From: Nocardioides baekrokdamisoli
Lineage (GTDB): Bacteria; Actinomycetota; Actinomycetes; Propionibacteriales; Nocardioidaceae
Direction of reading: 5' to 3'
Assembly (NCBI RefSeq): GCF_003945325.1
Contig: NZ_AP019307.1
Coordinates: forward strand, 2,170,001-2,234,000
Length of the DNA: 64,000 nucleotides
Program-made: the position numbers and the translations under genes
In this document: positions 14,055 through 46,235 of the stretch, piece by piece
Layout: each line of letters opens with the position of its first letter
How positions within the stretch are numbered: the stretch's first letter is position 1
Notes under the pieces: model-generated
Seen by the model: only the letters and a program-made list of their open reading frames with translations
What the model was told of the DNA's origin: nothing
Database searches by the model: none

Positions 14055-16697
14055 TTACGCGTGGGCCGGGGTCGGCCGGTCGGGGTTGATGCCGTACTTC
14101 TCGATCGCCGCGGCGACCACGTCGCGGGTGACGACCCGCTTGTCGGCGAGGTTGCTGAGCGCGGTGACCGCGATGAAGTAGCGGTCCACCTCGAAGTGGC
14201 TGCGCAGCTTCACGCGGTAGTCCGAGCGGCCGAATCCGTCGGTGCCCAGCGCTGTGAACGAGCCCGGCACGAAGCCGGAGATCTGGTCGGCGTACGACTT
14301 CATGTAGTCGGTCGCCGCGATCACCGGTGCCTTGCTCTTGCCCAGGCTCTGCTCGACGTACGACTTCCGCGGCTTTTCCAGCGGGTGCAAGGTGTTCCAG
14401 CGCTCGACCTCGAGTCCCTCGCGGCGCAACTCGGTGAAGCTGGGCACGCTCCACACGTCGGCGGAGATCCCGAAGTCGTCGCGCAACAGGTCGGCAGCGG
14501 CGATCACCTCGCGCAGGATCGTGCCCGAGCCGAGCAACTGCACCTGAGCCGTCTCCGCCGCCGGGCGCAGAAGGTACAGCCCCTTGAGGATGCCCTCCTC
14601 GACACCCTCGGGCATCGCCGGATGTTCGTAGTTCTCGTTCATCAGGGTCAGGTAGTAGAAGACATCCTCCTGATCGGCGTACATCCGTCGCAGGCCGTCG
14701 GCCACGATGACCGCGAGCTCGTAGGAGTACGTCGGGTCGTAGGAGACGCAGTTCGGGATGAGTGCGGCCTGCAGGTGACTGTGGCCGTCCTCGTGCTGGA
14801 GGCCCTCGCCGTTGAGGGTCGTACGCCCCGCGGTGCCGCCGAGGAGGAACCCGCGTGCGCGCATGTCGCCGGCGGCCCAGGCGAGGTCGCCGATCCGCTG
14901 GAACCCGAACATCGAGTAGTAGATGTAGAACGGAATCATCGGGGTGTCGCTGGAGGAGTACGACGTCGCGGCAGCGATCCAGGAAGACATCGCGCCGGGC
15001 TCGTTGATGCCCTCCTCGAGGATCTGCCCGCCGGCCGCCTCCTTGTAGAAGGCGAGCTGCTCGGCGTCCATCGGCTCGTACAACTGGCCCTGCGGTGCGT
15101 AGATGCCGACTTGGCGGAACAGTCCCTCCATGCCGAACGTACGCGCCTCGTCCGGGACGATCGGGACGATCCGCTTGCCGATCTCCTTGTCGCGCAGCAG
15201 TTTCGTGAGGATCTGGACGAACGCCATCGTCGTCGAGATCTCACGCCCGTTGGACCCGGCCACCTGAGCCGCGAACGCCTCGATCCCCGGCACAGCCAGA
15301 GCCATCGACGTACGTCGGCGCTGGGGGAGGTAGCCGCCGAGATCGGTGCGGTGCGCGTGCAGGTACGCGTGCTCGGGGGAGCCTTCGGGGAACGTGAGGT
15401 ACGGATAGCTGAGCAGGTCCTCGTCGCTCACCGGCACCGCGAAGCGGTCACGGAACGACCGCAGCGAGTCGTCGTCGACCTTCTTGGCCTGGTGCGCCGT
15501 GTTCTGCGCCTCGCCCGCCTTGCCGAGGCCGTACCCCTTGATCGTCTTGGCGAGGATCACGGTCGGCTCGCCGACATGCGCATGGGCCGCCGCGTACGCC
15601 GCGTACACCTTCTGTGGGTCGTGGCCACCACGGGTGAGGCGCCAGATCTGGTCGTCGGTCCAGTCGGCCACCATCGCGGCGAGCACGGGGTCGGCGTTGA
15701 AGAAGTGCTCGCGCACGTACGCACCGTCGCGGCTCTTGTAGGTCTGGTACTGCCCGTCGACGGCCTGCATCATCCGGCGCTTCAGCGCCCCGGTGGTGTC
15801 CTTGGCGAGCAGCTCGTCCCAGCCCGAACCCCAGATCACCTTGATGACGTTCCAGCCGGAGCCGGCGAAGTCGCCCTCGAGTTCCTGGATGATCTTGCCG
15901 TTGCCGCGGACCGGACCGTCGAGGCGCTGCAGGTTGCAGTTGATGACGAAGACGAGGTTGTCGAGGTTCTCGCGGCCGGCCAGCGAGATCGCGCCGAGCG
16001 ACTCCGGCTCGTCCATCTCGCCGTCGCCGAGGAAGGCCCAGACCTTGCGGTTGGAGGTGTCGGCCAGTCCGCGCGCGTGCAGGTATTTGAGGAAGCGTGC
16101 CTGGTAGATCGCCATCAGCGGACCGAGGCCCATGGAGACCGTCGGGAACTGCCAGAAGTCCGGCATCAGCCAGGGGTGGGGGTAGGACGACAGCCCGTGA
16201 CCGCCGGTCTCCTGGCGGAAGTTGTCGAGCTGGTCCTCAGTCAGGCGGCCTTCGACAAAGGCGCGCGAGTAGATGCCCGGTGAGCAGTGCCCCTGGATGT
16301 AGACGAGGTCGCCGCCGTGGCCCTCGGCCGGCGCGTGCCAGAGGTGCTGGAAGCCGGTCTCGTAGAGGGTCGCGGCCGACTGGTAGCTGGCCAGGTGGCC
16401 GCCCAACTCGCTCGACTCCTTGTTGGCGCGCAGCACCATCATCATCGCGTTCCAACGCACGACCGCCCGGATGCGGCGCTCCATCTCGATGTCGCCGGGG
16501 TACGCCGGCTCCTCTTCGGGCCAGATCGTGTTCACGTACGGCGTGGTCGCGGTGAACGGCACTCGCGCGCCGAGCCTGCGAGCCTCTTCGACCAGCTGTT
16601 CGAGCAGGAAGGCCGTACGCGGTTCGCCGTCGAATTCGAGCACGCTGGCGAGTGCTTCGCGCCATTCGGCTGTCTCGACGGGATCGATGTCGGTCAT
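14055..16697 (-). CDS. aceE: Pyruvate dehydrogenase E1, homodimeric type
   Basis: Thiamine diphosphate-dependent pyruvate dehydrogenase E1 of 880 residues, the usual length of the single-chain form. The ThDP-binding motif is GDGEMDEPESLGAISLAGRE ending in the conserved NCN of FVINCNLQRLDGPVRGNGK. HLWHAPAEGHGGDLVYIQGHCSPGIYSRAF is another E1 hallmark. It catalyses oxidative decarboxylation of pyruvate and passes acetyl to AceF, encoded 10 bp downstream. AAGGGG precedes the ATG. A CRP-like site lies 24-39 bp before the start. The E3 gene is not in the window. Confidence 0.96.
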   Translation of the reverse strand: MTDIDPVETAEWREALASVLEFDGEPRTAFLLEQLVEEARRLGARVPFTATTPYVNTIWPEEEPAYPGDIEMERRIRAVVRWNAMMMVLRANKESSELGGHLASYQSAATLYETGFQHLWHAPAEGHGGDLVYIQGHCSPGIYSRAFVEGRLTEDQLDNFRQETGGHGLSSYPHPWLMPDFWQFPTVSMGLGPLMAIYQARFLKYLHARGLADTSNRKVWAFLGDGEMDEPESLGAISLAGRENLDNLVFVINCNLQRLDGPVRGNGKIIQELEGDFAGSGWNVIKVIWGSGWDELLAKDTTGALKRRMMQAVDGQYQTYKSRDGAYVREHFFNADPVLAAMVADWTDDQIWRLTRGGHDPQKVYAAYAAAHAHVGEPTVILAKTIKGYGLGKAGEAQNTAHQAKKVDDDSLRSFRDRFAVPVSDEDLLSYPYLTFPEGSPEHAYLHAHRTDLGGYLPQRRRTSMALAVPGIEAFAAQVAGSNGREISTTMAFVQILTKLLRDKEIGKRIVPIVPDEARTFGMEGLFRQVGIYAPQGQLYEPMDAEQLAFYKEAAGGQILEEGINEPGAMSSWIAAATSYSSSDTPMIPFYIYYSMFGFQRIGDLAWAAGDMRARGFLLGGTAGRTTLNGEGLQHEDGHSHLQAALIPNCVSYDPTYSYELAVIVADGLRRMYADQEDVFYYLTLMNENYEHPAMPEGVEEGILKGLYLLRPAAETAQVQLLGSGTILREVIAAADLLRDDFGISADVWSVPSFTELRREGLEVERWNTLHPLEKPRKSYVEQSLGKSKAPVIAATDYMKSYADQISGFVPGSFTALGTDGFGRSDYRVKLRSHFEVDRYFIAVTALSNLADKRVVTRDVVAAAIEKYGINPDRPTPAHA

Positions 16698-16720
16698 GAA
16701 CGAGCCCCTTGAGGGTGGAG

Positions 16721-16736
16721 GGTGACGTGCGTCACC
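16721..16736. promoter_or_regulatory. CRP/GlxR-like binding site upstream of aceE
   Basis: GGTGACGTGCGTCACC, two 7-base arms around TG. It contains GTGA-N6-TCAC, the spacing of cAMP-receptor-type sites (TGTGA-N6-TCACA). It is 24-39 bp upstream of the aceE start, so a bound protein would probably repress or sit at the promoter. Cyclic-AMP control is inferred, not shown. Confidence 0.5.
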
Positions 16737-16843
16737 ATCCTTGCCTCATCGGGGTCGCGCGTCCAATGCCGAATTGGCGATCGACACATGCGTTCCATGC
16801 ATGAGTATTCGGAAATACATGTCGCATGCGATGAGTGTCGCCG

Positions 16844-17746
16844 TCACGAACGCGCAGCCAGCGCCTCCCGGGCGTGCGCCGCGACATGCGTACGGAAATG
16901 CTCGGACGCGGGCGGCAGTCGCCGGTCCTTCATCCAGGCCAGACCGATCTCGCGTACAGCCTTGACGTCACTGATCTGCAGATGCGGAGCGGTCGGCGCA
17001 CCCCCGCTGTGCGGGGCCGGCAGCAGCGCAACACCGAGGCCGGCGGCGACAAGGCCGCGGATCGTGTCGACCTCCTCGCCCTCGAACCCGAAGGTCGGTT
17101 CGAACCCGGCCTGGGCGCAGAGCGTCGTGGTGACGTCGCGCAGGCTGAAGCCCGGTTTCAGGGCGATGAAGGTCTCCCCGGCGGCCTCCTTGAGGCGTAC
17201 GCTCTTCCGCTCGGCGAGCCGATGATTGGGCGGGACCACCAGGCGCAGCGGCTCCTCGAGCAGCCGGATGCTCTCGATCTGGGGGTGCGTCGGGCGGTCG
17301 CCGGTGATGGCCATGTCGACGACGCCGCTCAGAAGGTCGTCCACGAGGCCGGCGTCACCGTGCTGGCGCAGGTCGAACCTGACGTCGGGGCGCTCGCGCC
17401 GGAACTGCTGGACGAGTTCGGGAACGAGCCAGGTGCCGAGGGTGTGCAGGAAGGCGACAGGGACGAATCCGCCGTCGGGCGCCGCCATGTCCTGCACGGC
17501 GCGCACGCCTCGGTCATAGGCCTCGACGATGCTCCGTGCGTACGGGACGAGCTCATGACCGGCGGGGGTGAGGACGACGCCCCGGCCGACGCGCTGGAAG
17601 AGCTCGGATCCGGCTTCGCGTTCCAGGCGCGCGAGGGCGCGAGACATCGCGGGCTGGGTCCGATTGGCCAGCTCGGCGGCTTCGGTCACCGTACGGCCGT
17701 CAGCCACGGCGAGGAATGAGCGAATCGTGTCGATCTCCACGAACAC
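16844..17746 (-). CDS. LysR family transcriptional regulator
   Basis: A 300-residue LysR-type regulator. The N-terminal helix-turn-helix (EIDTIRSFLAVADGRTVTEAAELANRTQPAMSRALARLEREAGSELFQR) is textbook for the family; residues ~90-300 form the effector-binding domain. It starts with GTG 18 bp after the lipoate ligase-like gene and points toward aceE, 146 bp away. The spacer before aceE holds imperfect dyads around 16775-16835 that could be its operator. Control of pyruvate dehydrogenase is plausible from position only. Confidence 0.88.
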   Translation of the reverse strand: MFVEIDTIRSFLAVADGRTVTEAAELANRTQPAMSRALARLEREAGSELFQRVGRGVVLTPAGHELVPYARSIVEAYDRGVRAVQDMAAPDGGFVPVAFLHTLGTWLVPELVQQFRRERPDVRFDLRQHGDAGLVDDLLSGVVDMAITGDRPTHPQIESIRLLEEPLRLVVPPNHRLAERKSVRLKEAAGETFIALKPGFSLRDVTTTLCAQAGFEPTFGFEGEEVDTIRGLVAAGLGVALLPAPHSGGAPTAPHLQISDVKAVREIGLAWMKDRRLPPASEHFRTHVAAHAREALAARS

Positions 17747-18453: not shown

Positions 18454-18711
18454 TCAGCCGGCAGCACGCGGCTGCGGCACACCCGCCCCAGGCACGATCA
18501 CCACCACCGCGTCGCCCTCCTGGACGATCTGCCCCGGCTCGACCGGGATCGAGGCGACCACCCCGGCGACCGTCGCGAAGATCGGGATCTCCATCTTCAT
18601 CGACTCCACGACCGCCAACATCGAGCCAGCCTCGACGTGATCGCCCACCGCGACTTCGATCTTCCAGACCGAGGCCACGATCGGTGCTACGTGAGGGACG
18701 GTGTCGCTCAT
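18454..18711 (-). CDS. Small biotin carboxyl carrier protein
   Basis: A stand-alone biotinyl domain of 85 residues. VVESMKMEIPIFATVAG contains the biotin-accepting K39 in the invariant MKM. It shows the lipoyl/biotinyl fold pattern and little else. The ATG overlaps the stop of the carboxyltransferase gene (ATGA), so the two are translationally coupled subunits of one acyl-CoA carboxylase. No biotin carboxylase gene is nearby and that subunit must come from elsewhere. Confidence 0.9.
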   Translation of the reverse strand: MSDTVPHVAPIVASVWKIEVAVGDHVEAGSMLAVVESMKMEIPIFATVAGVVASIPVEPGQIVQEGDAVVVIVPGAGVPQPRAAG

Positions 18712-20207
18712 GCGGTCAGCATCCGCAACGACGCCACCAAGCGGTCGCGGGTCTCCTCGGGCAGGATCACGTCGTCGACGATCCCGGCCTCGGCCGCGAT
18801 CCACGGGCGGGCGACGTTCTCGCGGTAGTCGGCGGCCAACGAGTCGCGCAGCGCGGCCGGGTCCTCGGCGGCGGCGAGTTCGCGCCGGTTGAGCAGCGCC
18901 ACCGCGCCACCGGGACCCATCACCGCGATCTCCGAACCCGGCCACGCCCAGCACGCATCGGCGCCGAGCGACGGCGAACCCATCGCGATGTACGCACCGC
19001 CGTACGCCTTGCGGACGATGACGGTCAGCAGCGGCCCGGTCGCCTCGGCGTACGCACGCAGCAACGTTGCGCCGTACGTGATCACGCCGCGGCCCTCCTC
19101 GACCGTTCCGGGCAGGAAGCCCGGGACGTCGACGAAGGTGAGGACGGGGATACCGAATCGGCCGCAGTAGTCCACGAACCGCGACGCCTTGACCGAGGTC
19201 TGGGTGTCGAGGATGCCGCCGCGGGCGTTCGGCTGGTTGGCCAGGATGCCGACCGGCTTGCCGTCGAGGCGGGCGAACATCGTCAGCACGCTGGGGGAGC
19301 GCGTGGGCATGATCTCGAACATCGAGCCCTCGTCCACGACACCGGCGATCACCTGCGTCATGTCGAAGCCGACGCTGGCCTTCGACGGCACCACGTACGG
19401 GAGCTCCGCAGCCGCAGCCGCGTCCGGGCCGACCGGCAACGACTCCGGCAGCGGGCCGCCGGCGTACGTCGGGGTGAAGGAGAGGATCTTGCGCGTTGCC
19501 TGGATCGCCTCGGCCTCGGAGTCGACCGCGAGGTGCGCGACGCCGGAGGTCTGGGTGTGCATGTCGGCGCCGCCGATCGCCTCGGCGGTGGCGTCCTCGC
19601 CGGTCGCGGCCTTCACGATGTCGGGGCCGGTGAGGAACATCTGCCCCTGCTCGCGGACCATGATCGTCCAGTCGGTGAGGGCAGGTGAGTACGCGGCGGC
19701 ACCGGCACACGGGCCGAGGATGACGCTGATCTGGGGCACCCGACGGGTCGCCTTCACGTTGAGCCGGAAGATGCCGCCACAGCCGTGCAGCGCGTGGATG
19801 CCGTCGTGGATCCGCGCGCCGCTGGAGTCGTTGAGGTAGATGATCGGGTAGCCGTGGTCGATCGCGAACCGCTGCGCGTCCTGGACCGCGTCTGCGAAGA
19901 CGGCCCCGATCGCGCCGGCGGCGACTGCCGCGTCGTGGCTGATGATGACCACTGGCCGACGGTTCACGGTTGCCCATCCGGTGAGGACGCCGGCGCCGAC
20001 GCCCGGCTCACGTGACCGCGCCGGGGCGAACGCCACGAAGGTGCCCTGGTCAGCGAGCTGCTCGGCGCGCTCCTTCGCGGTGAAGGTCCGGTTGCCCCGC
20101 GGCGCAACGCGTACGGCCTTGGCGGCGCGACGAGTGAGCAGGGCAGCGCGCTGCGGGTCCTCGTTGAAGTCGTCCAGATCCGCGGGTGCGGTGAGTTGCT
20201 GGGTCAT
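18708..20207 (-). CDS. Acyl-CoA carboxylase carboxyltransferase subunit (AccD/PccB type)
   Basis: Carboxyltransferase of 499 residues with both halves of the crotonase-like fold. IYLNDSSGARIHDGIHALHGCGGIF (about 124-148) and GPCAGAAAYSPALTDWTIMV are in the N-half. VDVPGFLPGTVEEGRGVITYGATLLRAYAEA and VRKAYGGAYIAMGS are in the C-half. It moves CO2 from biotin to an acyl-CoA, giving malonyl-CoA or methylmalonyl-CoA; specificity is not readable here. It heads an operon with the biotin carrier. Its promoter region carries the same double palindrome as the fas promoter, which favours malonyl-CoA supply for FAS. Confidence 0.92.
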   Translation of the reverse strand: MTQQLTAPADLDDFNEDPQRAALLTRRAAKAVRVAPRGNRTFTAKERAEQLADQGTFVAFAPARSREPGVGAGVLTGWATVNRRPVVIISHDAAVAAGAIGAVFADAVQDAQRFAIDHGYPIIYLNDSSGARIHDGIHALHGCGGIFRLNVKATRRVPQISVILGPCAGAAAYSPALTDWTIMVREQGQMFLTGPDIVKAATGEDATAEAIGGADMHTQTSGVAHLAVDSEAEAIQATRKILSFTPTYAGGPLPESLPVGPDAAAAAELPYVVPSKASVGFDMTQVIAGVVDEGSMFEIMPTRSPSVLTMFARLDGKPVGILANQPNARGGILDTQTSVKASRFVDYCGRFGIPVLTFVDVPGFLPGTVEEGRGVITYGATLLRAYAEATGPLLTVIVRKAYGGAYIAMGSPSLGADACWAWPGSEIAVMGPGGAVALLNRRELAAAEDPAALRDSLAADYRENVARPWIAAEAGIVDDVILPEETRDRLVASLRMLTA

Positions 20208-20252
20208 CGGTGGTCCCTCCGGAGGTGCATGTCATCCATGGAAACACAAACA

Positions 20253-20289
20253 TGAGGGTTTCCTCAAACTAAATGCGAGGAAAACCTCA
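20253..20289. promoter_or_regulatory. Double-palindrome operator between the carboxyltransferase and TetR genes
   Basis: Two 14-bp dyads, TGAGG-GTTT-CCTCA (20253-20266) and CGAGG-AAAA-CCTCA (20276-20289), start 23 bp apart. They lie between divergent genes, 46 bp from the carboxyltransferase start and 57 bp from the TetR start. The same pair, with identical spacing, recurs before fas at 30185-30221. The adjacent TetR protein is the obvious candidate to bind it. Confidence 0.75.
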
Positions 20290-20345
20290 TATTTATCTGC
20301 GCTCGAACGCGGAGTTCGATGGCTACTCCTCGGTAGCATCAGCGC

Positions 20346-20966
20346 ATGACCGAGGAATTGCTGGAGCCGCGGCGTCGACCGACGCAGGATCGGAGCCAGA
20401 AGAAGTTCGACGAACTGCTGCGCGTCGCGCGACGTTTGTTGATCGATGTGGGCTTCGAGTCGTTCACCTGTGAAGAGGTCGCCCATCGCGCGGGACTGCC
20501 GATCGGCACCCTCTACCAGTTCTTCGCCAACAAGTACGTGATCGTGTGCGAGCTCGACCGGCAGGATGCCGTCGACGTCCGCGAGCAGGTCCGAGAGCTG
20601 ACAGCCCAACTCCCGACGCTCGACTGGCCGGCCTTGGTCAACCAGGTGGTCGATCGGATGGCGGCGATGTGGGTGGCCGATCCGTCGCGTCGTGCGGTCT
20701 GGCACGCCGTACAGTCCACGCCTGCGACCCGGGCCACGGCGACGGTGATCGAGCGCGACCTCGCGGCCAGCGTCGCCCGTACGCTCGCACCCCTGACGCC
20801 CGGCACCCCCAGGGAGCGCCGCACGATCATCGCCGAGGTGCTGGTCCATGTCGTCTACTCGATGCTCAACTTCTCGGTTCGCGACGGGCAGGAGCACGCC
20901 GAGGCCGTCACGGAACTCAAGCGACTGCTCGGTGCGTACCTGCATGCCGCCGAGAGCACCACGTAG
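20346..20966 (+). CDS. TetR family regulator, candidate regulator of fatty acid synthesis
   Basis: A 206-residue TetR repressor-type protein. The helix-turn-helix covers about 20-65 (DELLRVARRLLIDVGFESFTCEEVAHRAGLPIGTLYQFFANK), followed by a helical ligand domain. It is divergent from the carboxyltransferase operon and near fas-acpS, with a shared operator at both promoters. Mycobacterial FasR is a TetR protein controlling fas-acpS, so a similar role is likely, though orthology is unproven. TAGCAT ends six bases before the ATG, suggesting a leaderless mRNA. Its last ~112 bp overlap the 3' end of acpS in the opposite direction. Confidence 0.85.
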   Translation: MTEELLEPRRRPTQDRSQKKFDELLRVARRLLIDVGFESFTCEEVAHRAGLPIGTLYQFFANKYVIVCELDRQDAVDVREQVRELTAQLPTLDWPALVNQVVDRMAAMWVADPSRRAVWHAVQSTPATRATATVIERDLAASVARTLAPLTPGTPRERRTIIAEVLVHVVYSMLNFSVRDGQEHAEAVTELKRLLGAYLHAAESTT

Positions 20967-21367
20967 GCCGCAGCGATCGGACCGTCGTGGCTCAGGGAGA
21001 CCTGGATCTCGTAGTCGCTGAGCTCGAGCCGCAGTGCTCCGTGGGTCGCGAGCCGTGGTCGTCCCCAGCCGTCGCTGACGACCTCGACGAGTCCGAGGGA
21101 GTCGTCGGCCAGGATCGGCGGGCGGCCGTAGAACAGCGTCGACCAGGCCTTGATGAGCGCCTCCTTGGCGGCCCAGCGGGCGGCCCAGTGCTCAGCTCCA
21201 CCGCCGCGGGCGGCGATCTCGGCCCTCTCGCCGGTCCGGAAGAACGTGCTGAAGCGCGACCCCGGCAACGCCAGTTGCTCGGCGAACGACGCGACGTCGA
21301 CGACGTCGAGTCCGACGCCGACGACGTGGCCGTCGATCGCCTCGGGTGAGAAGGCTGTCAGCGGCAT
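20855..21367 (-). CDS. acpS: Holo-[acyl-carrier-protein] synthase
   Basis: 4'-phosphopantetheinyl transferase that activates the ACP domain of FAS-I. GVGLDVVDV (D21) and RWAAKEALIKAWS (K68, E69) are the AcpS magnesium and catalytic motifs. The ATG lies inside the end of fas, a 10-base overlap, indicating coupled translation. The normal fold ends near residue 140 (AAAYVVLSA). About 30 extra residues follow, rich in Ser, Arg and Cys and encoded antisense to the TetR gene; they look like read-through into non-functional sequence rather than a domain. Confidence 0.92.
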   Translation of the reverse strand: MPLTAFSPEAIDGHVVGVGLDVVDVASFAEQLALPGSRFSTFFRTGERAEIAARGGGAEHWAARWAAKEALIKAWSTLFYGRPPILADDSLGLVEVVSDGWGRPRLATHGALRLELSDYEIQVSLSHDGPIAAAYVVLSAACRYAPSSRLSSVTASACSCPSRTEKLSIE

Positions 21368-24300
21368 GCGTACGCGCCGTCCTGAGCCAGTCGCGCCGTC
21401 GGGTTGATCAGGACCTCGGCCTCGCGCTCGCGGTACCCGGCTGCGTCGCCGAGACGGCGACCCTTCGGGCGTACGTACGCCGGCTCGTCGAGCATCGCCC
21501 GGGTGATCCGGAGACGGCCGTCGACCTGGCGGGCGCGGGCTCGAGCGCGGTAGTCTTCACGTTCGTCGGCCGGGAGACTCTGGATGAACGCCTCCGGGTG
21601 GACCACCGCGACCAGGCCGGAGACGTGTCCGAAGCCGAGGCTGGTCACCAGGCCGGCACGAAGCGGGCCGGTGTGCAACGGCTGGCGCAGCCACACGAGT
21701 CGGCGGTACTCCTCCAGAGCCGGGTCGAGACAGTCCAGGCTGCGGTTCGGCGGGACGACGCCCTGCGTCAGGACCTGGCAGAGGCCGATCAGCTGGAACG
21801 CCGCGGCACCACCCTTGGCGTGACCGGTCAGCGACTTCTGCGAGACCACCAGAAGGGGGTTGTCCGCGTGCCGGCCCAACGCGTCGGCGAGACGTTCGTG
21901 CAGCTCGGACTCGTTCGGATCGTTGGCGGCCGTTGACGTGTCGTGCTTGGAGATCACGGCGACGTCGTCGGCGGTCAGACCGAGGCCGTTCAGGGCCTTC
22001 GCGAGCATCGAATCCTGCCCGCCGAGGCCGGCGCTCAGCGCGCCCAGGCCAGGGGCCGGGATCGAGGTGTGGATGCCGTCCGCGTACGAACCGGCGTACG
22101 CCACGACGCCCAGGACCGGCAGGCCCATCCGGGCGGCCACGTCACCGCGGGCCAGGAGCAGGGTGCCGCCGCCCTGGGACTCGACGAACCCGCCGCGGCG
22201 GCGGTCGTTGGCTCGGCTGATGTATCGGTCCGATATACCTTGCGCTCGCATCGCCTCGGTGTCGGCCGTCGCGGACATGGCCGCGAAGCCCACCACGCCC
22301 TCGGTGCTCAGGTCGTCGAAGCCTCCTGCGACGACGACATCGGCCTTACCGACACGGATCTTGTCGACACCCTCCTCGACGCTGACCGCGGTCGTGGCGC
22401 ATGCCGCCACCGGGTGCACCATCGCGCCGTATCCGCCGACGTAGGACTGCATCACGTGCGCGGCGATGACGTTCGGCAGAGCCTCCTGCAACAGGTCGTT
22501 CGCCGTCGACTCGCCGAGCAGCGTGTCGACGTACAGCGACTGCATCGACGTCATGCCGCCCATACCCGTGCCCTGCGTGTTCGCCACACGAGCCGGGTGG
22601 ACCCAGCGCATCAACTCACTCGGCGTGAAGCCGCTGGAGAGGAACGCATCCACGGTGCAGACCAGGTTCCACAGGGCGACCCGGTCGATCGCCTCGACCA
22701 TCTCGCCGGGGATGCCCCAGACGCGCGGATCGAAGCCTGTCGGCAACTGACCACCGACGGTCCGGCTGACACTCACCCGTCGCGGGACCCGGATCTCCGT
22801 CCCGGCCCGACGCGTCACTGTCCACTCGCCGTCGGCGTTGGTGGCGATGGCGGTGTGCTCGGGGTTGGCCTCACGCATCGCCTGCGCCTCGGCCTCACTG
22901 CTCACCGTGAACGTGAGGTCCTCGGGCAGGAACACCGACGCCAGCAGGGGAGCGGAGCCCGGGGTGATGGCACCGTCCTCGACATAGTCGCGTACTCCGC
23001 ACCGCTCAAGCACGGCGTCGTTGTAGCGATCGAAGATCTCCGCCTCGTCGACTGCCTCGTCGGAGGCGACGTCGAACCAGCTGCCGGCCACCGCGTCCCA
23101 GCGCACCAGGCCGGTCGTCCAGGCGAGTTCGAGTACGCCCGCGGCACTTAGTTCGCCGCTGACCTCGACCTCGAAGCGAGTCCGCGACGAGCCATACGGA
23201 CCGAGCTCGCCCGCGCCGACGATGACCACCAGGTCCTCGGGTCGCACCTCGAGGGTCGGCCACTCGGGGATGTGCGGTTCGTGCAGGTCGGCAGGCGATC
23301 CGGGGAGCGCGTCGATCCGAGACACGGTCTCGGCGGCGACTTCGTCATCGGCGCTTGCGGAGTCGGCGACCGACTTGGCCAGTTCGCGCAGATTGATCGC
23401 GTCGAGGCCTCCGGTCAGGTCGACGGTGAGCGGCTCAACCGCTGCCTTCTCCCGAGCTGCAACCGAGCAGAGGGCCAGCAGCTCGGCGGCCATCTCAGCG
23501 TTCGACCAGGTGCGTACGCCGGCTGCCTCGACGGCCTCGACGAGCGGGTCGTTGCTCTTCATCAGGCCGGTGCCGCGGACCCAGCCGATGATGGCGTGGG
23601 CCAGCGTCACGTTCTCGGCCCAGTCGCGCTCGGCCTTCCATCGGGTCACGAGTGCATCCAGGGCGGCCTTTGCCTCGCCGTACGCGCCGTCGCCACCGAA
23701 TCGGCCGCGGTTCGGGGAGCCGGGGAGGACCACGTGCAGCGAGCGGCCCCAGTCGGCGGTCACGAGTCGCTCGACGGACCACAGCAGGATGCGGGCCTCG
23801 ACCTCAGCGCGTGGGCCGACGTCCGCGGCGTCGCCGCGTACCGATCCGGCTGCGAACGGGAGCAGCAACGTCGGGCGCAGAGCCGGCTTGGTCACCTTCG
23901 TGGTCGGACCCACGGCGGTGGTCTGCTCGCCGGTGACCCAGGCGACGAACGCGTCGATGTCGGCGAACGATGCCATGTTGGCCGGCACGACCCAGAGCTT
24001 CGCCCCGACCTGTGCGTGCTCGCGGTAGAGCTGCTTGAAGAACGCCAGCCGGGCGTCGTCGAGTCGCGACGTGGTCGCGATGACGGTGGCGCCACCGGCC
24101 AGGAGCTCACCGGCGACCGCCGCCGCGATCGATCCGACCGAAGCCCCGGTGATGATCGCAGTGTCCTCGGCCCAGGTACCGACCTGAGTCGTCTCCGCAG
24201 CGCTGGCGACGTCGTCGAGTTCGAGCCAGCGGGCGATCGCGGCCGCGTTGTCGCCAGCCGCGTCGATGTTGGCCGAGTCCTGCTCGCCGTACGCGATGCG

Positions 24301-27300
24301 CACGATGTCCTCGCGCACGCTGGCCCAGCGGTCGTCCAGCAGGACGGCGCGCTTGGCATCGAATGCCGGCGCGGTCGCGGTGATCCACCCGGTGCCGAGC
24401 TCGCGTTCGACGTGGGCGATCAGGGCAGCGTCGTCGTTGGCGTCCTCCGCCGTTGCGACCGCAGCCGGTTCGAACTTCGCGAGCAGGTGCTTGGCCGTCG
24501 ACACCAGTGCATCGGTGATGCCACCGGTGATCCCGGCGAGCGCTCCGGCGTCGACGGAGGCACTCTCAGCCACCGGCGCCGCGACACTCACGCCGTGGCG
24601 TGCTGCGACCGCGGTGACCGCCGCGTCGATGATCGCTGTGGCCTCACCCGCGTTGCCTGGCGCAGCACCGGCGGCCAGGTCGCCACCGCGTACGCTCGCG
24701 CCCTCGCGGGTCCGCAGCGCCACCTCGACGAGGACGTGGTGCGCCCAGCCTGCGCCCAACTGCCAGTGGCCGGTGACGCGGTCGGCGATGGCCGACTGGC
24801 GTACGCCTGCAGGACCGAGAACCTTCTTGAGGTGGTCGGCCAGAGTCACGGAGAGCACCGGGCCGAACGGCTTGTAGCCGCGCGCAAGAGCGTTGACCTG
24901 GCCGGACAGCGTGCCGAGATCGGCTTCGGCGGCACCGTCGATCGCGCCGAGGGAGAGCTCGGTTCCGAGGTCGACGAGCAACTGGTTGCGGCGCGAGGAG
25001 GCACCATCGGTGAGAGCCTCGATCGAGTCGTTGCCGGCGAGTTGGTCGGCACGGATCTTGGTCCACCAGGTGAGCAGCAGACGTGTGGCGTCCGCGGCGG
25101 TGAAGGGGAGGTCGGCGATGTTGGCGGAGGCAGCGGCCGGTGCGGCGGCGACGGGGGCGGCTGCCGCAGGGGCCGAGTCGGCCGGGGCCGCAGCCTCCGG
25201 CTCGTCGTCGTCGATCACGACGTCCTCATCGGTGGAGAAGCACCGTGCGGCGTCGCGCTCGAGGTTGTACACGTCAACGGCGCGGTCCAGCCGTACCCGC
25301 ACGCTCGGGACCTTCAAGGTCTGCGAGGCGAGGTTGGCCAGGGTCGGCGACTTCCCGACGCCGACCTCGATCAGCTGGGTCACGCCCAGGCCGCCGTACG
25401 TGGTCGAACCGAAGAAGAGGTCCTGGGTCTCGATCCACCGCACCGGGCTGGCGAACTGCCACGCGAGCAACTCGACCAGCAGGAGCCGGGTCAGCGCGCC
25501 CGGCCGTGCGGCCCATGCGGCGAAGTCCGCCAGGGCAGCCTCGATCGGCTCCGCAGGCGCGACCTCGAGGATCGATCGAAGGAACTCCTCGTCGAGCGAG
25601 AACGGACGGGCGACCAGGTTCGGCACGTACCGACCCAGCAGCAGGGCCGGGTCGATCTCGGCCGGCAGGAGCGCCTCGAGGGAGGAACGGAAGTCCGGGA
25701 CACCGGCGCGCAGCACGGAGGAATGGAACGGCACGTCGATGCCCGGTACGAGAACGAAGGCGCCACGGCCACCGGCGGCGGCGCGACGGCGCTCGACCTC
25801 GGTCTCCAGGGCCTTGCAGCCGGCGACGGTGCCGGCGATCGCGTACTGCGAACCGCGCAGGTTGTAGTTCACGATCTGGAGGAACTCGCCGGACTCCGCG
25901 GAGACCGTCTCGACGAAGGCGAGCACGTCGTCATCGGCGAGGTCGATCTGGGACGGACGGATGGCGGCGAGGCGGTAGTCGCTGCGGCCCTCGGCGTCGC
26001 GGGGCACGAGTCGGTGCATCACCGATCCGCGCTGGTAGACGACCTCGACGACGGCCTCGAGCGAGATCACACCGGCGACGGCGGCGAGCGCGTTGTACTC
26101 ACCGACCGAGTGGCCGGCGACGTACGCGTCCTCGACGACCAGACCGGACTCGACCAGTTCGGCCATCTGCGCCGAGGCCAGGACGGCCATGGCGACCTGG
26201 GTGAACTGCGTGAGGAACAGGACGCCGTCCGGGTGCTTGTGGCGCCCGTCGGCGGCGTCCAGCTCGGTCGGGTTCGTACGCACGACCTCGAGGATCGAGA
26301 AGCCGAGGCGACTGCGGGTGTGCGCGTCCGCGCGGTCCCAGATCTCGCGCGCGGCCTTGCTGCGGCCGTACGCCTCCATGCCCATGCCCGGGTGCTGGAT
26401 CCCCTGGCCGGGGAAGACGTACGCCGTGGTCGGAGCGCCGACCAGTGCCTGGCCGGAGAAGACGGTGGTGCCGTCGACGGAGGCGACCACGGTGAGCAGT
26501 TCGCGCCCGGCGCGTACGCCGATCCGCGCAGCCTGGATGGTGACTTCCTGACCCGGCATCACCGGGGCGAGGAACTGACCGCTCCACGCCTCGATCGGGC
26601 GGTCGGTCTGTTCAGTGATCACGCGCTGGGCGACGGCGGAGATCCACATCCCGTGCACGATCGGGCCCTCGAGCCCGGCCAATTGCGCGACGGCGACGCT
26701 GGTGTGCAGCGGGTTGTGATCGCCGGTGACAGCGGCGAAGGCGTGCAGGTCGGTGGGTGCCGTGACGGTGGCACTGACGCGTACGACTCGCGGGGTGTCG
26801 CGGACGTCGGGAGCGATTGCGGTCGGGGGCGTCAAGCGCGCCGCACCGCTGCGGCCGCGGATGGCGAATCGCTCGTGGAGCGTGGCGACCGGAGCGCCGC
26901 CCCGGGTCAGTGAGACATCGACGGTGACGACTCGGCCGACCTCGGTGTCGGTGACCGAGACGATCTCGGCTTCAGCATCCAATACGCCCGGCTCGGTGGG
27001 GATCGAACCGGTGATGACGTGGTCGAGGTGGACCAGGTCGAGTACGCCCTCCACCACGTCGGGGCGCGTCGCCAGGGTGTGGAACACGGTCGGCCAGGTC
27101 AGTCCGACGAGCGCGTCCAGGACCGCGTCGGTCCCGTGGGCGCCGGTGTCGGTGACCAGCGCGTGCTCGGTGGCCAACCCCGGGTGGAACTGGGCGTGAC
27201 CGCCGCTGCGCTGACCGGCCATGGCATTGAGCAGGCCGATCATCGACTCGGCCGCGTCCTCGACGACCGGCGCTGCGCCAGTCGGCGTCCCATCCGTCGT

Positions 27301-30171
27301 ACGCAGGATCAGGGTGATCGCGGAGTCGCCGGTCGGGATCTGCAACTCGACGCTCGTCGGGCTGGTGGCGCTCAGGGTCGCTCCCGTTGCACGCTGCTCG
27401 GCTCGAGCGGCATCCACGACGTGCCAGTCCCCACCCAGTCGGTGGACCGGATTGGTGACGGTGCGCTCGCCCCAGACGACGTCTGGCGCGGCGAGTACGA
27501 GCGAGAGCGCGTCCTCGGCGTGCTCGTCGCGGCGGCGGCCCACCACGCGGGCCGGCCAGTCGCCGTCGGCCAGGACGGAGTCGACCACGGCGTCCTCGAA
27601 ACGCTGCAGCAGGTCGGCGACCGGCTCGTCGACCCGGGTGATGCCCGCGATCGCCACCGGACCGGGGATGACACAGACGGCATCGGCGTCGTACCGCTCG
27701 TCGTGGGCCTGCCACAAGGAGTCCGAACGCCACCAGCGACGTACCTCCGCGTCCAGGACCGGGACGAACGGGACGGGCTTGCCTGCCGTGCGGCAGACCT
27801 TCACGAAGAAGGAGACGTCCACGGGGTGGAGTTGGACGCTCTCCGCGGACGGGTAGTGCTCGATCAGGGCTGCAATCGCCGCGGCGCCGTCCTCGATCTC
27901 GGCCGATTCGGCCCACAGGGTCGGGATCTGGCCGTGGTCCTCGGGGGCGAGCCGCGCCTCGGCGCGCTGCAGGAGCGTGTGGAAGCGATCCCGCAGGGTG
28001 CTGTCGAGCCAGGTCGGTGTTCCGGCGAGGTCCACGAACCGCGTGAGCCATTCGGCGTACGTCATCTGTGCGGCGTCGCCGAAGTACGGCTTCGCGGTCT
28101 GGTTCAGCGCCTCGATGATTTCCCCGGCGCGCGCCTTCACGGCGTCGGCGTCGCCGGCGACCTCGTCCAGGAGGCGGCCGACGCGGGAGGCGGTGTTGTC
28201 GATCTCGTGGATGTCGGCGCCGAGCTGGCTGTGGCCCGATGCCATGCCGTTGCGGGCGGTGCCAGCCTTGACCCAGCCGTCAGTTCCGGGGGTGTCGACG
28301 AGGAGCTGCTTGACCTGGGGGGACGTGGTCGCCTCCAGGCAGGCCATCGCAGCCGTACCGATGAGGACACCGTCGAGGGGCATCGCCGGGTGGCCGAGCG
28401 CGATCGACCAGTCGCCGGTGATGTATCGGGCCGCTATATCCGGCGTTCCGATCCCGCCACCGACACACACCACCACGTTCTCGCGAGCACGGAGGTCGGC
28501 GTAGGTCTTGATCAGGAGCTCGTCGAGGTCCTCCCACGAGTGGTGCCCCCCGGCCTTACCGCCCTCGATCTGCACGATCAGTGGCGTCGGGGCGACCTCG
28601 TCGGCGATCGCGAGTACGTCGCGTACCTGAGCCAGCGTGCCCGGCTTGAAGGCGACGTACGGAACCCCGACCGCACGGAGGTCACCGACCAATCGCACCG
28701 CATCCTCCAGTTCGGGGACACCAGCCGTGACGATGACACCGTCGACAGCGGCGCCGGCCGCGCGAGCGCGGGGGAGCAGTCGCTTGCCCTCGACCTGCAG
28801 ACGCCAGAGGTACGGGTCGAGCAGGAGCGAGTTGAACGCCCACGTCCGACCCGGCTCGAGCAGGCCACCGAGGCGATCGACGTTCGCGGCGAAGATCTCC
28901 TCGCTGACCTGACCGCCGCCGGCAAGCTCAGCCCAGAAGCCGGCGTTCGCGGCTGCTGCGACGATCGCCGGGTCGACGGTCGTCGGGGTCATGCCTGCGA
29001 GCAGGATCGGTGAGCGACCGGTGAGTCGCGTGAAGGCCGTCTCGGCACGGGTGCTGCCGTCAGGCAGCGTCACCACCGTCGGGGCGTACGCGGTCCAACT
29101 CCTGGCGGGGGCAGGCGCGCCACCGGGCACCGTGAGCTCGCGCAGGCCGCGGTTCAGGGCGGTCGGGACCACGGTGAGGCCGTGTGCGCGAGCGTCGGTT
29201 GAGGTCAGTCGGCTGGCGACATCGGTCGGGCCGAGATCGAGGACCCAGGTCGCGGCAGACGACGTCAGGGTGGCCACGTCGGCGGCCCAGTCGGTCGGTT
29301 GCACAATCGCGCTGTCGGTCAGGCGTCGCGCGGCGTCCGGGTCGAGTCCGCACGCAGCAGCCCAGGTGGCGGCGAGATCCGACGCCGCGGCGAGCTCGGA
29401 GTGGTGGTACGCGGCGCCGATGTGGAGGTCGTCGATCACGGCACCGGGGATGAGGTCCTCGAGATGCCGCAGTTCCGCCGCCGGGCCGGTCACCACATGG
29501 CTCGTCGGACCGTTGTGCAGGCCGATCTCCAGACGTGACGGTTGCGGCGCAGCGGCGAGTGCCGCCTTGAGCTCGCTGTGCGAGGGCCCGGACACGCTAC
29601 GCATCCCCGCGCCCAGCAACCCGTGCTCGCGAGCAGTCCGCTCGACGGCCGCGCCGATCAGGATCGCGTACGCGAGGGCCTCGGCCTCATCCATGCCGCT
29701 CAGAAGTTCGACGGCGAGCCGTCCTTGGGAGTGCCCGATCGCCACGGTCGCGGCGGCTGGGTCCAGTCCGAGGCGACGCAGCCCGCGTACGAGTGCGATG
29801 TGTCCCAGCAGTACGCCCGGGATCGAGAGCGACGGTGCCACGACCTCGTCGGCCGAGGGCGCCGCCGAGGCGTCGTCGGACTCGATCGACTCGCTGTCGG
29901 CGAGTGCATTCAGCCACGGGATGGGGTCGAAGCGTTGTCCCGAACGCAGCAGTTCGCCGCCCACCGGGCTGGTCCGCTCCTGGGCGGCGGCGACCAGCGG
30001 TCCGACCTCGACGGCGTGCGTACGCACCAGCTCCGCCAACCCGGTCAGCCACGGCGCGCCCTGGCCGCCGAAGATCACCGAGAACGGAGTCCCGGACGCC
30101 AGCTGGTCCAGGAGCGTGCGTGAGGTCGAGGAAGTACGCGGAAGCGGGGGAGCGATCGACATGCCGTCCAT
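21358..30171 (-). CDS. fas: Type I fatty acid synthase (FAS-I)
   Basis: Single-chain bacterial FAS-I of 2937 residues that builds long-chain acyl-CoA from acetyl- and malonyl-CoA. Domains in order: acetyltransferase (S148 in GHSQG), enoyl reductase/DUF1729 region (about 390-650, GGGIGTPDIAARYITGDW), MaoC-like dehydratase (about 1140-1180, VTGDHNPLHTS), malonyl/palmitoyl transferase (S1355 in GHSVGE), ACP (S1725 or S1726 in GASSRRNQLLVDLG), ketoreductase (about 2005, TGASVGS), ketosynthase (C2591 in AACATTA, H2743 in KHDTST, H2784 in GHAKGG). The phosphopantetheinyl transferase is separate: acpS follows with a 10-bp overlap. ATG 30171 is used; ATG 30162 is possible. The double-palindrome operator ends 14 bp upstream. 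Confidence 0.97.
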   Translation of the reverse strand: MDGMSIAPPLPRTSSTSRTLLDQLASGTPFSVIFGGQGAPWLTGLAELVRTHAVEVGPLVAAAQERTSPVGGELLRSGQRFDPIPWLNALADSESIESDDASAAPSADEVVAPSLSIPGVLLGHIALVRGLRRLGLDPAAATVAIGHSQGRLAVELLSGMDEAEALAYAILIGAAVERTAREHGLLGAGMRSVSGPSHSELKAALAAAPQPSRLEIGLHNGPTSHVVTGPAAELRHLEDLIPGAVIDDLHIGAAYHHSELAAASDLAATWAAACGLDPDAARRLTDSAIVQPTDWAADVATLTSSAATWVLDLGPTDVASRLTSTDARAHGLTVVPTALNRGLRELTVPGGAPAPARSWTAYAPTVVTLPDGSTRAETAFTRLTGRSPILLAGMTPTTVDPAIVAAAANAGFWAELAGGGQVSEEIFAANVDRLGGLLEPGRTWAFNSLLLDPYLWRLQVEGKRLLPRARAAGAAVDGVIVTAGVPELEDAVRLVGDLRAVGVPYVAFKPGTLAQVRDVLAIADEVAPTPLIVQIEGGKAGGHHSWEDLDELLIKTYADLRARENVVVCVGGGIGTPDIAARYITGDWSIALGHPAMPLDGVLIGTAAMACLEATTSPQVKQLLVDTPGTDGWVKAGTARNGMASGHSQLGADIHEIDNTASRVGRLLDEVAGDADAVKARAGEIIEALNQTAKPYFGDAAQMTYAEWLTRFVDLAGTPTWLDSTLRDRFHTLLQRAEARLAPEDHGQIPTLWAESAEIEDGAAAIAALIEHYPSAESVQLHPVDVSFFVKVCRTAGKPVPFVPVLDAEVRRWWRSDSLWQAHDERYDADAVCVIPGPVAIAGITRVDEPVADLLQRFEDAVVDSVLADGDWPARVVGRRRDEHAEDALSLVLAAPDVVWGERTVTNPVHRLGGDWHVVDAARAEQRATGATLSATSPTSVELQIPTGDSAITLILRTTDGTPTGAAPVVEDAAESMIGLLNAMAGQRSGGHAQFHPGLATEHALVTDTGAHGTDAVLDALVGLTWPTVFHTLATRPDVVEGVLDLVHLDHVITGSIPTEPGVLDAEAEIVSVTDTEVGRVVTVDVSLTRGGAPVATLHERFAIRGRSGAARLTPPTAIAPDVRDTPRVVRVSATVTAPTDLHAFAAVTGDHNPLHTSVAVAQLAGLEGPIVHGMWISAVAQRVITEQTDRPIEAWSGQFLAPVMPGQEVTIQAARIGVRAGRELLTVVASVDGTTVFSGQALVGAPTTAYVFPGQGIQHPGMGMEAYGRSKAAREIWDRADAHTRSRLGFSILEVVRTNPTELDAADGRHKHPDGVLFLTQFTQVAMAVLASAQMAELVESGLVVEDAYVAGHSVGEYNALAAVAGVISLEAVVEVVYQRGSVMHRLVPRDAEGRSDYRLAAIRPSQIDLADDDVLAFVETVSAESGEFLQIVNYNLRGSQYAIAGTVAGCKALETEVERRRAAAGGRGAFVLVPGIDVPFHSSVLRAGVPDFRSSLEALLPAEIDPALLLGRYVPNLVARPFSLDEEFLRSILEVAPAEPIEAALADFAAWAARPGALTRLLLVELLAWQFASPVRWIETQDLFFGSTTYGGLGVTQLIEVGVGKSPTLANLASQTLKVPSVRVRLDRAVDVYNLERDAARCFSTDEDVVIDDDEPEAAAPADSAPAAAAPVAAAPAAASANIADLPFTAADATRLLLTWWTKIRADQLAGNDSIEALTDGASSRRNQLLVDLGTELSLGAIDGAAEADLGTLSGQVNALARGYKPFGPVLSVTLADHLKKVLGPAGVRQSAIADRVTGHWQLGAGWAHHVLVEVALRTREGASVRGGDLAAGAAPGNAGEATAIIDAAVTAVAARHGVSVAAPVAESASVDAGALAGITGGITDALVSTAKHLLAKFEPAAVATAEDANDDAALIAHVERELGTGWITATAPAFDAKRAVLLDDRWASVREDIVRIAYGEQDSANIDAAGDNAAAIARWLELDDVASAAETTQVGTWAEDTAIITGASVGSIAAAVAGELLAGGATVIATTSRLDDARLAFFKQLYREHAQVGAKLWVVPANMASFADIDAFVAWVTGEQTTAVGPTTKVTKPALRPTLLLPFAAGSVRGDAADVGPRAEVEARILLWSVERLVTADWGRSLHVVLPGSPNRGRFGGDGAYGEAKAALDALVTRWKAERDWAENVTLAHAIIGWVRGTGLMKSNDPLVEAVEAAGVRTWSNAEMAAELLALCSVAAREKAAVEPLTVDLTGGLDAINLRELAKSVADSASADDEVAAETVSRIDALPGSPADLHEPHIPEWPTLEVRPEDLVVIVGAGELGPYGSSRTRFEVEVSGELSAAGVLELAWTTGLVRWDAVAGSWFDVASDEAVDEAEIFDRYNDAVLERCGVRDYVEDGAITPGSAPLLASVFLPEDLTFTVSSEAEAQAMREANPEHTAIATNADGEWTVTRRAGTEIRVPRRVSVSRTVGGQLPTGFDPRVWGIPGEMVEAIDRVALWNLVCTVDAFLSSGFTPSELMRWVHPARVANTQGTGMGGMTSMQSLYVDTLLGESTANDLLQEALPNVIAAHVMQSYVGGYGAMVHPVAACATTAVSVEEGVDKIRVGKADVVVAGGFDDLSTEGVVGFAAMSATADTEAMRAQGISDRYISRANDRRRGGFVESQGGGTLLLARGDVAARMGLPVLGVVAYAGSYADGIHTSIPAPGLGALSAGLGGQDSMLAKALNGLGLTADDVAVISKHDTSTAANDPNESELHERLADALGRHADNPLLVVSQKSLTGHAKGGAAAFQLIGLCQVLTQGVVPPNRSLDCLDPALEEYRRLVWLRQPLHTGPLRAGLVTSLGFGHVSGLVAVVHPEAFIQSLPADEREDYRARARARQVDGRLRITRAMLDEPAYVRPKGRRLGDAAGYREREAEVLINPTARLAQDGAYACR

Positions 30172-30184
30172 GAGAACATAAACA

Positions 30185-30221
30185 TGAGGGAAACCTCAAA
30201 TAAAACGCGAGGAAAGCCTCA
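30185..30221. promoter_or_regulatory. Double-palindrome operator at the fas promoter
   Basis: TGAGG-GAAA-CCTCA (30185-30198) and CGAGG-AAAG-CCTCA (30208-30221) start 23 bp apart, as at 20253-20289. The flanking bases AACA before the first dyad and TATT after the second are also kept. It sits 14-50 bp upstream of the fas ATG, so it must overlap the core promoter; binding would block transcription. Confidence 0.75.
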
Positions 30222-45320: not shown

Positions 45321-46235
45321 ATGGCGAACAACACTGTGCTCAGCACCGTCAAGGTGTCCCTGCCCGGAGAGATCTTCGAGGCTCCGGTCAACATTCCGTT
45401 GATCCACCAGGTCGTCGTGGCCCAGCAGGCTGCGGCTCGCCAGGGTACGCACAAGACCAAGAACCGCGGCGAAGTCTCCGGTTCGGGTGTCAAGCCGTTC
45501 AAGCAGAAGGGCACCGGTCGCGCCCGTCAGGGTTCGGTCCGTGCTCCGGAGCACCGCGGCGGTGGCGTTGTCCACGGTCCGGTTCCGCGGGACTACAGCC
45601 AGCGCACCCCCAAGAAGATGAAGGCCGCCGCCCTGCGCGGTGCCCTCTCCGACCGCGCCACCAACGGCCGCGTGCACGTCGTGGAGTTCGCTCTCGACAA
45701 GCCGTCGACCAGGACCGCGCTCAAGGGTCTGGCTTCGCTCACCGACCGCACCAAGTTCCTGGTCGTCCTGGACCGCTCCGAGTCGGTTGTGTGGCTGTCG
45801 CTGCGCAACGCGCCTGAGGTGCACGTCCTCGCTGTCGACCAGCTGAACACCTACGACGTCCTGCGCTCTGACGACCTGGTCTTCTCGAAGACCGCGTACG
45901 AGACGCTGGTCGGCGGTGCCCCGGTGGTCGCCAAGTCCACGAAGGCCGCTCCGAAGGCCGCCAAGGCTGCCGAGAAGGTCGTCGACAAGGCCGTCGCCCT
46001 GGCGCCGGTTGCCGACGCCGAGGTTCCGGGTGCGGCTCTGCCGCTCGAGGATGGTTCGGCTCCCGAGGGTTACCTCATCAAGGGCAACAAGGACTCGATG
46101 AAGTTCCACGCCCCGGGCGGTCGCTGGTACGACGCGACTGTCGCCGAGGTGTGGTTCAAGACCGCTGAGGACGCCATTGCTGCCGGCTTCGTCGAGGCTG
46201 GCAAGAAGGCTGCGAAGAAGGAGGACGGCGAATGA
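45321..46235 (+). CDS. rplD: 50S ribosomal protein L4 (uL4) with an extra C-terminal domain
   Basis: The first ~205 residues are ordinary L4, including the exit-tunnel loop [31 protein letters not shown]. Then comes a Lys/Ala helix-forming linker (about 206-245, [19 protein letters not shown]) and a compact module at about 248-292, [18 protein letters not shown] followed by [18 protein letters not shown]. It resembles what NCBI calls the sunset domain (recalled, not searched). At 304 residues it is ~85-90 longer than usual L4. It is not a frameshift: codon use is unchanged and the stop overlaps the rplW start. Confidence 0.95.

Follow-up and report, generated by a model that had tools for sequence, protein, structure and literature searches.

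Paired operators before fas and a carboxyltransferase operon in Nocardioides baekrokdamisoli suggest a regulon of the Corynebacterium glutamicum FasR type

Introduction

In Nocardioides baekrokdamisoli, a gene for a TetR-family regulator lies between a carboxyltransferase-biotin carrier operon and the genes for type I fatty acid synthase (FAS-I) and AcpS, and the same pair of inverted repeats occurs before both operons. This arrangement raises the question of whether a single regulator controls the supply of malonyl-CoA together with its use, and to which family such a regulator would belong. We addressed the question in a stretch of 64,000 nucleotides (positions 2,170,001 to 2,234,000 of NZ_AP019307.1, hereafter the window), starting from an original prediction that was made from the DNA letters and that took the mycobacterial FasR as its comparator.

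Several TetR proteins are relevant to the question. Excerpts of the literature describe the FasR of Mycobacterium tuberculosis as an activator of fas-acpS that is taken off the DNA by its ligand, long-chain acyl-CoA, with three inverted repeats in the promoter. In Corynebacterium glutamicum, FasR represses accBC, accD1, fasIA and fasIB, according to excerpts of PMC6460773 and PMC7316851. AccR of Streptomyces avermitilis is described, again in excerpts, as a TetR repressor that binds acc genes at the operator GTTAA-N6-TTAAC, its targets being accD1A1-hmgL-fadE4, echA8, echA9 and fadE2.

Results

The genes of the locus and the four repeat elements are listed in Table 1. The start of the biotin carrier gene overlaps the stop of the carboxyltransferase gene (ATGA), and the start of acpS likewise overlaps the stop of fas. 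The acpS and TetR genes are convergent, their 3' ends overlapping by 112 bases (20855-20966). Beyond the biotin carrier gene, positions 14055-17746 contain a gene for pyruvate dehydrogenase E1 and one of the LysR type, with no double dyad there.

Table 1. Coordinates of genes and operator elements in the window
Feature	Position	Strand	Evidence
Biotin carrier protein, 85 aa, ESMKMEI	18454..18711	-	PF00364 in longer frame containing it; bases read
Carboxyltransferase, AccD/PccB family, 499 aa	18708..20207	-	PF01039 E 2.2e-137; Ile at acyl-specificity position
Putative carboxylase operator, proximal dyad TGAGG-N4-CCTCA	20253..20266	-	Pattern scan
Putative carboxylase operator, distal dyad TGAGG-N4-CCTCG	20276..20289	-	23-bp spacing here vs 27-30 bp in relatives
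TetR-family regulator, 206 aa, C. glutamicum FasR type	20346..20966	+	Pfam TetR_N + TetR_C_22; 49% identity to C. glutamicum P0150
AcpS (holo-ACP synthase)	20855..21367	-	NCBIfam NF000831 146.4 bits, cut-off 124
Type I fatty acid synthase, 2937 aa	21358..30171	-	PF08354 E 1.4e-108 and other FAS domains
Putative fas operator, proximal dyad TGAGG-N4-CCTCA	30185..30198	-	Pattern scan; pair in 20/23 relative fas loci, 23-bp spacing
Putative fas operator, distal dyad TGAGG-N4-CCTCG	30208..30221	-	Pattern scan and relatives

The two pairs, at 20253-20289 and 30185-30221 (37 bp each), match YGAGGN4CCTCA-N9-YGAGGN4CCTCA without a mismatch. With up to three mismatches allowed, a scan of the window returned these two places only (on both strands each), whereas 100 shuffles gave 0.02 on average. 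Across the genome, a single contig of 2,965,302 bases, the 37-bp pattern was found elsewhere at just two places with three mismatches and at none with two or fewer. The original prediction was thus exact as to the coordinates, the start-to-start distance of 23 bp at both places and the absence of the pair elsewhere in the window, and the genome-wide scan proposed with it returned two sites only at up to two mismatches. Both operators face minus-strand genes, the first being separated by 45 bases from the carboxyltransferase ATG (20207) and the second by 13 bases from the FAS ATG (30171). On its other side, the first operator is separated by 56 bases from the TetR ATG (20346). These distances agree with the predicted placement between the carboxyltransferase-biotin carrier operon and a divergent TetR gene and at the start of fas, respectively. 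A sigma-70 scan of the two promoters found none.

Single dyads (YGAGGN4CCTCA) are found elsewhere in the genome too. Three of them (window position 46064, genome positions 1196854 and 1405515) were inspected as marks of further regulon members and rejected, since they lie inside or at the end of reading frames, the latter placement being our reading of the bases; we treat all three as chance occurrences.

Conservation of the elements was analyzed in 20 genome stretches and 80 loci retrieved through a TetR profile, the two upstream counts that follow being based on rows L089-L145 minus seven rows that repeat a genome. The dyad pair (at most three mismatches in total) was present in 20 of 23 fas upstreams of the Nocardioidaceae, every one with the 23-bp spacing. 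The three loci without a pair at this threshold (L103, L104 and L107) belong to more distant genera, and their genomes carry a TetR protein of 57-58% identity despite the missing fas pair; the best fas pair of L107 has five mismatches and again a spacing of 23. Upstream of the carboxyltransferase, the pair was present in 36 of 37 cases, the exception being a carboxyltransferase beside TetR (L122), and the spacing was 28 bp in 21, 29 bp in ten, 30 bp in four and 27 bp in one. The spacing thus depends on the target, being 23 bp at fas and 27-30 bp at the carboxyltransferase. The hexamer TATAGT lies between the two dyads, immediately before the proximal one, in 21 of the 36 carboxyltransferase promoters. 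We read it as a likely -10 element, which would put the promoter under a bound protein. As to the flanks, ACA stands before the pair in 16 of the 20 fas rows, and TGT stands after it in 17 of these 20 and in 33 of the 36 rows for the carboxyltransferase.

A search for the pattern in 149 genomes of the family located a double dyad 1.60-1.76 kb before the FAS helical domain, which corresponds to the start of fas, in 36 of 37 FAS-I genomes, 37 being those of the 51 FAS-I genomes among the matches listed; G199 is the one FAS-I genome among the matches listed that lacks it. In rows L146-L188, with titles mostly from Gordonia, Nocardia, Williamsia, Hoyosella, Lolliginicoccus and Dietzia, a perfect dyad was observed in all 21 readable fas upstreams, a count that is not independent because these rows were drawn through TetR. 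Of these 43 rows, 39 include FAS-I in the stretch and none a carboxyltransferase; no FAS-I is present in the examined stretch of the locus from Corynebacterium (L187). In the loci from Mycobacteriales, about 90-310 bp separate the dyad from fas downstream of it.

The regulator co-occurs with FAS-I. In the family sample of 149 genomes, FAS-I was identified in 51 and the TetR protein (E <=1e-30) in 53, including all 51 FAS-I genomes; of the two genomes with TetR only, one is 62% complete (G074) and the other is in 220 contigs and contains the double dyad (G178). In a class sample of 394 genomes, 53 had a FAS-I match (52 of them over the cut-off) and 25 a TetR match, all 25 with FAS-I, in a TetR search that scored only seven candidates per genome. 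The fas upstreams of 20 class genomes were read. A perfect dyad precedes fas in all eight genomes read from groups g63, g104 and g109, where TetR is present, and in none of the eight read from g36, where it was not found. Group g36, presumably Mycobacterium, comprises 25 FAS-I genomes, and TetR was found in none of them at E 1e-30. No dyad with up to one mismatch was seen before fas in L213 and L214, where no TetR was found, nor in L215 and L216, where TetR is 36% and about 60% identical, respectively. Taken together, eight of the ten genomes in which a TetR relative was found had the perfect dyad before fas, as compared to none of the ten without one (Fisher p 0.0007, uncorrected for relatedness).

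FAS-I and TetR are patchy within the genus, either being found in none of 35 other same-genus genomes of the family draw, and records titled Nocardioides jejuensis (L138) and N. phosphati (L143) carry both. A record titled Kitasatospora arboriphila (L171) contains a TetR-acpS-fas block with coordinates and identities equal to those of Williamsia muralis (L173), which is probably due to contamination or mislabelling.

The family of the regulator was analyzed by comparison with both proteins that are named FasR. Against the mycobacterial FasR model NF053731, the window TetR scored 23.8 bits, far below the cut-off of 330, and over residues 16-83 only. The M. tuberculosis family was therefore rejected, and the mycobacterial protein named in the original prediction is the wrong comparator. 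In contrast, the window TetR is 49% identical over 202 residues to the C. glutamicum protein P0150, with an identical recognition region, PIGTLYQFFANKYV. An S20N mutation is reported for C. glutamicum FasR in an excerpt of PMC7316851; with a translation start at residue 10, it would fall on Ser29 of P0150, within QQRS. P0150 is thus probably the C. glutamicum FasR, an assignment made from the S20N fit and not from a locus tag.

The operator points to the same protein. In an excerpt of a 2024 review (PMC10933834), the C. glutamicum FasR site is printed as AAAANATGACNANNTCCTCATNTTT, citing Irzik 2014, and the native fasO letters were not found in the excerpt of PMC6460773. The cores TGACNANNTCCTCA and TGAGGNNNNCCTCA have 14 letters each and are in register with one another, flanked by A-rich and T-rich stretches. 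Scored against the FasR consensus, the distal dyads of fas and of the carboxylase reach 15 of 20, the carboxylase proximal dyad 14 and the fas proximal dyad 13. Scores of 14 or more occur in the window only on the three dyads other than fas proximal. Among 100 resamples of the window, 85 reached 13 somewhere, 19 of those reached 14 and none 15. The consensus by itself would thus not have picked out the sites; what agrees is the register. In the class sample, the best score before fas was 15-17 in eight genomes of g63, g104 and g109 versus 9-12 in eight of g36, and the upstream of L216 contains TGACACACTCCTCA, which scores 14 and is close to the Corynebacterium form.

The relationship of the regulator, the fasO-type operator and the target positions hence all agree with a FasR of the C. 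glutamicum type, and we consider it very probable, from these comparisons, that both 37-bp elements are tandem operators of the fasO type, to which the TetR protein encoded beside them binds. A different regulator could bind the dyads, TetR being merely a neighbour whose place beside fas is misleading. This is improbable, given that the dyads are found at fas and at the carboxyltransferase even in G182, where 1.6 Mb of the same contig separate fas from the TetR gene, that the perfect dyad before fas goes with a TetR relative among the 20 upstreams read, with kinship uncorrected, and that the element is in register with the published FasR site. Even less credible are leader RNA hairpins acting as attenuator or terminator: all four dyads were called terminator-like on the minus strand (two per region versus 0.2 expected), but the stems have five pairs only and the T run is weak, the symmetry extends to the flanking ACA and TGT, as is usual for a site bound by protein, the Mycobacteriales dyad is distant from fas, and the TATAGT between the dyads of 21 of 36 carboxyltransferase promoters would place the distal dyad upstream of transcription.

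The likeness of the FasR-type regulon to that of C. glutamicum extends from the TetR Pfam domains and the core and flanks of the operator to the targets, which are FAS-I and acetyl-CoA carboxylase genes in both, here by position only. Set beside C. glutamicum, the tandem dyads with fixed spacings are seen here from the sequence. Unlike in C. glutamicum as described, acpS follows fas, the regulator gene is located beside both targets, and the carboxylase target is the carboxyltransferase-biotin carrier pair, the probable biotin carboxylase gene being apparently outside the regulon. With M. tuberculosis FasR (Rv3208), the window TetR shares the fold (best match 6o6o_B, TM 0.64) and the presumed target fas-acpS, but it is not an orthologue, and in the presumably mycobacterial FAS-I genomes of g36 neither a window-type TetR (at E 1e-30) nor, in the eight fas upstreams read, the dyad was found. 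With AccR of S. avermitilis it shares the tie of a TetR protein to acc genes, whereas operator and targets differ.

The acyl specificity of the carboxyltransferase was assessed at residue 422, which differs among S. coelicolor PccB structures and at which we take a non-acidic change to shift the enzyme towards acetyl-CoA. The window protein has Ile at this position and the genome's own paralogue (L218) has Asp; Ile was also found in all 36 motif matches among loci L089-L145, where some genomes count twice. By sequence, the non-acidic residue points to an acetyl-CoA rather than a propionyl-CoA carboxyltransferase, and since Ile stands where the paralogue has Asp, the enzyme is likely to serve malonyl-CoA supply. 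L223 probably encodes its biotin carboxylase partner, as one of the two remaining matches is a frame of 1140 codons and the other adjoins another carboxyltransferase (L220). No dyad with up to two mismatches occurs in the 492 bases before the L223 reading frame, so the biotin carboxylase gene (accBC), as judged on this probable partner, appears not to belong to the regulon. An operator was likewise rejected for the remaining genes of the two enzyme types, carboxyltransferase and biotin carboxylase (L218-L223), the sole dyad with up to one mismatch in the examined stretches lying inside the L223 frame.

Discussion

The claim that a shared operator and one TetR regulator link malonyl-CoA supply to FAS-I has strong comparative support from conservation and co-occurrence. 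In the mechanism that we propose, two TetR dimers would bind the two dyads, overlapping the core promoter, and would repress both operons, carboxyltransferase-biotin carrier and fas-acpS, in concert, the direction being suggested by the promoter overlap. Long-chain acyl-CoA would tune the repression, giving end-product feedback on both the supply and the use of malonyl-CoA. The acyl-CoA response is taken by analogy from C. glutamicum, and a figure legend in the excerpt of PMC7851686 gives acyl-CoA-bound FasR as the repressing form. The structure model of the window TetR (mean pLDDT 88.4) has as fold neighbours M. tuberculosis FasR (6o6o), DesT with palmitoyl-CoA (TM 0.75) and Bacillus subtilis FadR with stearoyl-CoA, weak matches (best E 2e-5, about 19% identity) that give a hint only.

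The carboxylase had been presented as a new element of the circuit, a view that does not hold because acc and fas genes are both among the reported targets of C. glutamicum FasR. What is distinctive here is the paired-site layout and the copy-like second site. The regulon would extend that of C. glutamicum FasR to Nocardioidaceae, Gordonia, Nocardia, Williamsia and Hoyosella, and provides a sharply defined operator. Among the matches listed, the literature on FasR with Aeromicrobium or Nocardioides gave no account of this regulon, and that on Mumia no FasR paper. The results further suggest that the name FasR covers two non-orthologous TetR proteins, a Corynebacterium type and a Mycobacterium type, which take each other's place at fas. 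The presence of two spacing classes on two targets allows a direct test of how spacing affects repression.

The window itself appears to be a case where the spacing of one target was switched, since the 23-bp spacing of its carboxylase operator was observed in none of the 36 relatives. The carboxylase promoter lacks TATAGT, and its operator is identical to that of fas at 30 of 37 positions, followed by 16 of the next 20 bases towards the genes. Only two of 128,021 places in the window agree at 20 positions with the 29 bases that follow the fas operator, and one of the two is fas itself. From these likenesses, we hold with about even confidence that a transplanted copy of the fas promoter-operator replaced the ancestral 27-30-bp TATAGT type at the acetyl-CoA carboxylase operon. 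A short deletion in the ancestral pair, the loss of 4-7 bp being a simple event, is a possible but rather doubtful origin, as it is opposed by the likeness to fas both within the operator and beyond it, by the rarity of the downstream match and by the missing hexamer. If the operator is indeed a copy of that of fas, the supply and the use of malonyl-CoA would be under one identical switch, beside the regulator's own gene.

The original prediction also placed the TetR gene in its own circuit, and the short distance between the first operator and the TetR ATG is consistent with the protein repressing itself as a third arm, as is a perfect dyad 43 bp before TetR in N. jejuensis (L138). However, out of 95 TetR loci, among which some genomes appear twice, just three have a dyad with up to one mismatch within 300 bp upstream, in one case at a distance of 265 bp, and in the four relatives measured the TetR gene and the carboxyltransferase are separated by 1.8-2.2 kb with other genes between them. 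The position of the operator next to TetR thus seems to be a local arrangement that is not conserved, and autoregulation is somewhat unlikely.

Two minor observations concern short genes. In the carboxyltransferase leader, an 11-codon reading frame (20204-20239, minus strand) ends with a TGA that overlaps the carboxyltransferase ATG. Its start, ATGGA-G-CATG, resembles that of fas, and the frame is possibly a remnant of a copied fas start. Among six selected single dyads in relatives, two (L191 and L192) are near other genes and four are perfect dyads near a small gene (G120, G184, G170 and G183; sites L108:9196, L189:2452, L190:2674 and L193:2452), with TGAGGATATCCTCA in three and TGAGGTTATCCTCA in one. 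A similar 58-aa reading frame begins 22-33 bases past the dyad in three of these loci, and a like start, ATGGACGAGTCCACG, is visible in L190. Judging from these sites, the small gene is possibly a third target of the same regulator.
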